A stretch of 64,000 nt of DNA, from assembly GCF_000092305.1 (NCBI RefSeq), contig NC_014122.1:806001-870000 (forward strand), given 5' to 3'. The DNA comes from Methanocaldococcus infernus ME (GTDB taxonomy: Archaea > AGJL01 > Methanococci > Methanococcales > Methanocaldococcaceae). The position numbers and the translations under genes were made by a program. Each line of letters opens with the position of its first letter. The first letter of the stretch is position 1. The notes below the pieces were generated by a model. The model worked only from the letters and a program-made list of their open reading frames with translations. It was not told the DNA's origin and searched no databases. Shown here piece by piece: positions 52,926 to 52,955 of this stretch.

Positions 52926-52955
52926 TTTCCTACGAATTAGGAAAGTTATTTCCTA
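52926..52955 (-). promoter_or_regulatory. NrpR-like operator for glnK-amtB
   Basis: Three alternating half-sites occur: TTTCCTA (52926-52932), TAGGAAA (52938-52944) and TTTCCTA (52949-52955). The last pair contains GGAA-N6-TTCC, the consensus of the methanogen nitrogen repressor NrpR; the first pair is a perfect seven-base inverted repeat with a 5-bp centre. The TATA-like TATTTATATA (52971-52980 read on the minus strand) lies upstream, so the sites would cover the start of transcription. Binding by NrpR is inferred from consensus. Confidence 0.8.

Follow-up and report, generated by a model that had tools for sequence, protein, structure and literature searches.

How many binding sites for the repressor NrpR are held by the three similar half-sites that precede the glnK-amtB operon of Methanocaldococcus infernus, and how could such an arrangement have come about? 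The stretch of 64,000 nucleotides analysed here (the window) contains TTTCCTACGAATTAGGAAAGTTATTTCCTA at positions 52926-52955, letter for letter as a preliminary description had noted, and this description took the motif for an NrpR-type operator over the transcription start, composed of two inverted repeats that overlap in a common middle half-site. In Methanococcus, the NrpR operator follows the consensus GGAAN6TTCC, and glnK-amtB is among the operons reported to carry it upstream (PMC2723118); the operators of nifH and glnA are situated downstream of the TATA box, just past the start site (PMC5512572), and binding of NrpR is prevented by high 2-oxoglutarate (PMC4902934). For a Methanocaldococcus, an NrpR operator has likewise been noted upstream of nif operons, together with a TATA box (PMC8809328).

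Layout of the glnK-amtB promoter

On the glnK strand the elements follow one another in the order TATA box TTTATATA, 15 bases, TAGGAAATAACTTTCCTA, ATTCG, TAGGAAA, six bases, GGTGG and start codon (Table 1). There is therefore one perfect GGAA-N6-TTCC operator (operator 1), whose core, at 52940-52953, is the exact match that had been claimed for one of the two pairs, and a further GGAA that starts 23 bp downstream of the start of this operator. Operator 1 is close to where a nitrogen-assimilation gene begins and follows the TATA box, whose position would place the transcription start within the operator, in agreement with the location first proposed for the motif. An identical 18-mer occurs elsewhere in the genome, at a promoter of the nif cluster. 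The preliminary description had made its reading depend on the presence of an nrpR gene, and the genome has one (L250:275-1882, minus strand; 536 aa), with a winged helix, HTH_12, and two NRD1_2 stretches. Genes, TATA distance and nrpR thus support, on the level of sequence, the assignment of an NrpR-type operator to glnK-amtB.

Table 1. Features of the glnK-amtB promoter and operon, in window coordinates.
Feature	Position	Strand	Remarks
Operator 1, TAGGAAATAACTTTCCTA	52938..52955	-	Exact match; core present in 8 of 8 aligned promoters
Third half-site, TAGGAAA	52926..52932	-	All 8 aligned promoters have TA[AG]GAA at this offset
Position at which relatives have the right half of operator 2 (TTCC, +33)	52917..52920	-	AGGT here; overlaps the ribosome-binding site
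TTCG at +17	52933..52936	-	One letter off the TTCC of four other promoter operators of the same genome
TATA box, TTTATATA	52971..52978	-	Starts 25 bp before operator 1; role predicted from sequence
Transcription start region, inside operator 1	52946..52950	-	Predicted from TATA position
Shine-Dalgarno-like GGTGG	52915..52919	-	Read from sequence
glnK (P-II protein), GTG start	52570..52908	-	P-II family match
amtB (ammonium transporter)	51305..52546	-	Ammonium transporter family match

The exact 30-base layout, with zero mismatches, is found nowhere else in its own genome, in the kind of scan that had been suggested from the start, and nowhere else in a search that covered 36 genomes of its order. 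When up to three mismatches are allowed, the own genome offers three places (the site, a shifted self-match and the nif-cluster promoter) against none for a reversed-pattern control, while the 36 genomes offer 13 against 8, and because of this last comparison loose matches to the pattern mean little and the exact match alone is informative. The GGAA-N6-TTCC core by itself is weak evidence for an operator, being present three times in the window against 1.67 expected, a count that 23 of 100 shuffles reach. Genome-wide there are 71 such cores, and the reversed pattern has 26. The site owes its credibility to its context: the promoter of glnK-amtB, the distance to the TATA box, the NrpR gene, and the operators at other nitrogen genes.

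The same operon in related genomes

A close relative of amtB (82-100% identity) is present in 11 genomes, and the promoter of the operon is readable in 10 of these, G007 being left out because a contig end cuts its promoter; G002 has a more distant amtB only, and no match came from G010 or G011. The first gene of the operon is amtB in G004, G005, G009 and G012, and glnK in the other readable operons. In eight of the ten promoters, the window's included, operator 1 starts 24-26 bp after the start of a TATA-like 8-mer (three of the eight have a further such 8-mer upstream), and in all eight RGAA (AGAA or GGAA) starts exactly 23 bp from the start of operator 1, a MAFFT alignment being gapless from operator 1 through this half-site. 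TTCC follows at +33 in seven of the eight and completes a second operator, whose core matches at 7 or 8 of the 8 letters, and at amtB in G004, G005 and G009 the two operators, 23 bp apart, are both exact. The window genome is the exception: the left half of the second operator is present, and AGGT, adjoining the ribosome-binding site, takes the place of the right half. The eight promoters are related and so do not amount to eight independent cases, three of them having amtB, and not glnK, as their first gene; the promoters of G008 and G012, the other two of the ten, are readable and lack the 23-bp layout.

Beyond this set, tandem exact operators with any gap from 0 to 30 are found in 16 of the 36 genomes, against 1 of 36 for the reversed control. 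A narK-like promoter of G006 (best NCBIfam match, under the cut-off) has GGAA, TTCC, GGAT and TTCC at 0, 10, 23 and 33, and in another type of glnK promoter GGAA is located at +23 from an operator of 7 out of 8 letters in three of four cases (L117, L118 and L132; not L120) when the register is chosen by eye, the register picked by script putting this GGAA at +27. A scan for GlnK in a contig collection gave at least 80 loci, bacterial by their titles with the exception of one Methanophagales archaeon, and none of the order among the matches listed.

With the NrpR operators of Methanococcus maripaludis (nif, glnA, glnK-amtB) the window site has in common the core, the kind of target gene and the family of the repressor, and it differs in having only half of a second operator, 23 bp away from a complete first one. 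At glnK1 of M. maripaludis, overlapping operators were reportedly described by Lie et al. in 2010, at the same operon and likewise with more than one operator at the probable start; in the window, however, the second operator is 23 bp downstream and incomplete, so that instead of two complete, interleaving operators there is one complete operator only. An interleaved layout is shown by five glnK promoters of genus g2 (G014, G016, G018, G019 and G020), which carry the pair GGAAnnGGAATTCCnnTTCC with a shift of 6 bp, as well as by the g3 promoters L163, L164, L165 and L166 (first copy) and the g4 promoter L155. The suggestion that overlapping glnK sites would depart from what is known is not supported. 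As to the paired operators at nifH, said to have been described by Lie et al. in 2005, the feature in common is the presence of two operators in tandem; nine sister-family genomes have such tandems at nifH-like genes, spaced by 33 bp (32 in G017), and G034 and G035 have them at glnA-like genes, spaced by 22 bp, the genes being recognized by eye in both cases.

Among the promoters compared, then, NrpR-type operators recur in a few spacings: interleaved by 6 bp, in tandem at 22-23 bp, and in tandem at 32-33 bp. The DNA helix has 10.5 bp a turn, and both tandem spacings are near whole turns, which would fit neighbouring dimers on one face. The window promoter is one step from the tandem form, and an odd three-part motif becomes a readable history; together, these promoters offer a natural series for testing how the spacing and completeness of operators set the strength of repression in archaea, and their practical weight is small. 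NrpR operators, paired operators and overlapping glnK operators are already in print, and the 23-bp tandem layout with the loss of one half is a modest addition. No published description of this layout was recognized in a literature search whose coverage lay outside the main NrpR papers, and for that reason it may be in print as well.

Readings of the third half-site

Since relatives carry a complete operator at +23/+33, we take the third half-site for an eroded operator 2 of which the left half persists, and we consider it probable, as far as comparison of promoters can tell, that this is an ordinary NrpR operator region of glnK-amtB in which that half has survived from a tandem. An NrpR dimer would bind the perfect GGAA-N6-TTCC over the transcription start; if Methanococcus is a guide, the bound repressor would block transcription of glnK-amtB when nitrogen is plentiful, and 2-oxoglutarate would release it when nitrogen is scarce. 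A second operator would once have been located 23 bp downstream, about 2.2 turns of the helix, in the tandem that several relatives have kept whole, whereas here the leader is shorter and the ribosome-binding site begins where the right half would stand. At most, the remnant may assist a second NrpR dimer that is held through contact with the first. Operator 2 has 4 of 8 core letters here, a score that roughly 11% of randomly chosen window positions attain, so that the half-site could be a functionless remnant or a chance resemblance.

The preliminary description had in mind a true three-half-site operator, in which NrpR would bind either of two overlapping inverted repeats with the middle half-site in common, the two bindings being mutually exclusive or cooperative. 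The symmetry of the letters stands, as two inverted repeats are indeed formed, and the exact layout is unique among the 36 genomes; as operators, however, the two repeats are not equivalent, because only one pair has the order GGAA-N6-TTCC. The second reads TTCC-N9-GGAA on the glnK strand, opposite to the consensus (PMC2723118), and these letters correspond, in relatives, to the boundary between two separate operators in tandem, 23 bp apart. For both reasons we rejected the two overlapping repeats, and a shared middle half-site seems to us very improbable. Still further from credible is the possibility that the repeats act in the RNA as alternative hairpins of the leader, which on paper both are able to form: the leader of 52 bases has a folding energy of -8 kcal/mol at 37 C (z = -0.86), 37 of 200 shuffles fold equally well, the best fold contains neither symmetric hairpin, and the left arm is probably at or upstream of the transcription start.

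Could the third half-site be due to chance, a single operator being accompanied by letters without history? Places where GGAA follows an exact operator within 30 bases are frequent in this genome (21, against 9 for the reversed control), and in that tally, made on own-genome rows only, the gap of nine bases shows no excess, with 3 of the 21, equal to gaps of 3 and 12. From window frequencies, the probability that a given operator has another exact 7-base half-site no more than 30 bp away, to its left or right, is about 0.015. The half-site sits, however, exactly where the same operon has its second operator in relatives, and for GGAA at this single place, fixed beforehand, the same frequencies give about 0.005-0.007, so that chance appears an unlikely origin. 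The other two places with a gap of nine are inside paralogous genes (window 35545-36471, and G000:C1 about 54370-55413). Both members of this pair have a P-loop-like motif, recognized by eye, and long similar stretches, and both hold, within the reading frame, GGAA-N6-TTCC with GGAA nine bases on.

A stronger form of the eroded-tandem explanation, whose odds overlap with those of the latter, is that the half-site at +23 works as a half-operator, a second NrpR dimer being recruited by the first so that one specific half-site would be enough. TAGGAAA is intact and in register with operator 2 of the relatives, and a distance of some 2.2 turns would bring the two dimers to about the same side of the helix; against this, the right half matches TTCC at none of four letters and overlaps the ribosome-binding site, and we regard a working half-operator as possible and rather doubtful. 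More speculatively, and with some reluctance, one might suppose that a half-operator is enough to attract a repressor dimer when a full operator is some two helix turns away; the promoter, with its three half-sites, would then be a still-working natural intermediate between a tandem operator and its loss.

Returning to the eroded tandem, a route for the loss of the right half is suggested by the leader and by the copies of glnK. The leader, measured from operator 1 up to the start codon, has 45 bases in the window genome, against 60-81 in the other seven. A second glnK (G000:C1:127216-127551) is identical to that of the window at 335 of 339 bases, and the identity runs 11 bases upstream of the start codon, GGTGGTTCAGT, as far as offset +34, which falls within the stretch where the right half is missing, and part of these 11 bases may be just a common ribosome-binding site. 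Within each of the genomes G004, G005, G012 and G013 the glnK copies are identical at all 333 compared bases, and in G001, G003, G006 and G008 at 298, 325, 326 and 320 of 333, respectively. Because of this full or nearly full identity within several genomes, the copies seem to have been homogenized repeatedly, and the sequences suggest gene conversion or recent duplication, both of which would look alike. An exchange between glnK copies may have moved the ribosome-binding site against the operator and done away with the right half of operator 2. The DNA upstream of the glnK copies differs in most of G000 (the window genome), G004, G005, G012 and G013.

Other operators of the genome

The surroundings of 26 of the 71 exact cores were inspected, chosen mainly by their nearness to the operator consensus and not at random; 22 of them come from one set of stretches, two are the glnK and nif-cluster sites, and two were checked in addition. 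Of the 26, 8 are promoter-proximal, 1 is ambiguous (C1:82719), and 17 are inside reading frames. Sites of this type are thus not confined to glnK-amtB and also accompany other nitrogen genes: two of the promoter-proximal operators are at a nifH-like gene, one is at a small gene with a nifE-like gene after it, and there is one each at modA, at glnA, at a second amtB-glnK pair, at the glnK-amtB operon of the window, and at the gene of a binding protein with a weak match of branched-chain type. These gene names are best NCBIfam matches, that of modA alone being over the cut-off and the others corresponding mostly to partial genes. A third amtB (G000:C1:96975-98231), 77% identical to that of the window, has no TTCC and just one GGAA in the 300 bases upstream, and may therefore escape the control of NrpR.

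In four of the eight promoter-proximal operators, on either strand, the core is followed by another TTCC at +17, giving GGAA-N6-TTCC-N3-TTCC (G000:C1:31623-31643, 36751-36771, 172413-172433 and 393802-393822), which may be an extended operator. The binomial probability of such a count, 1.4e-6, belongs to a pattern chosen after seeing the data and to eight sites picked by hand from the 26 inspected of 71, with C1:82719 excluded, and is to be treated as a lead. Where TTCC follows an exact operator in the own genome, the gap is of three bases (that is, +17) in 6 of 10 cases; over 14 genomes and 87 rows, gaps of 0, 3, 5 and 6 all have high counts, so that the +17 half-site is not singled out across the family. 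The sequence GGAAGTAAGTTTCCTACTTCC is found exactly in G001, G003, G006 and G011.
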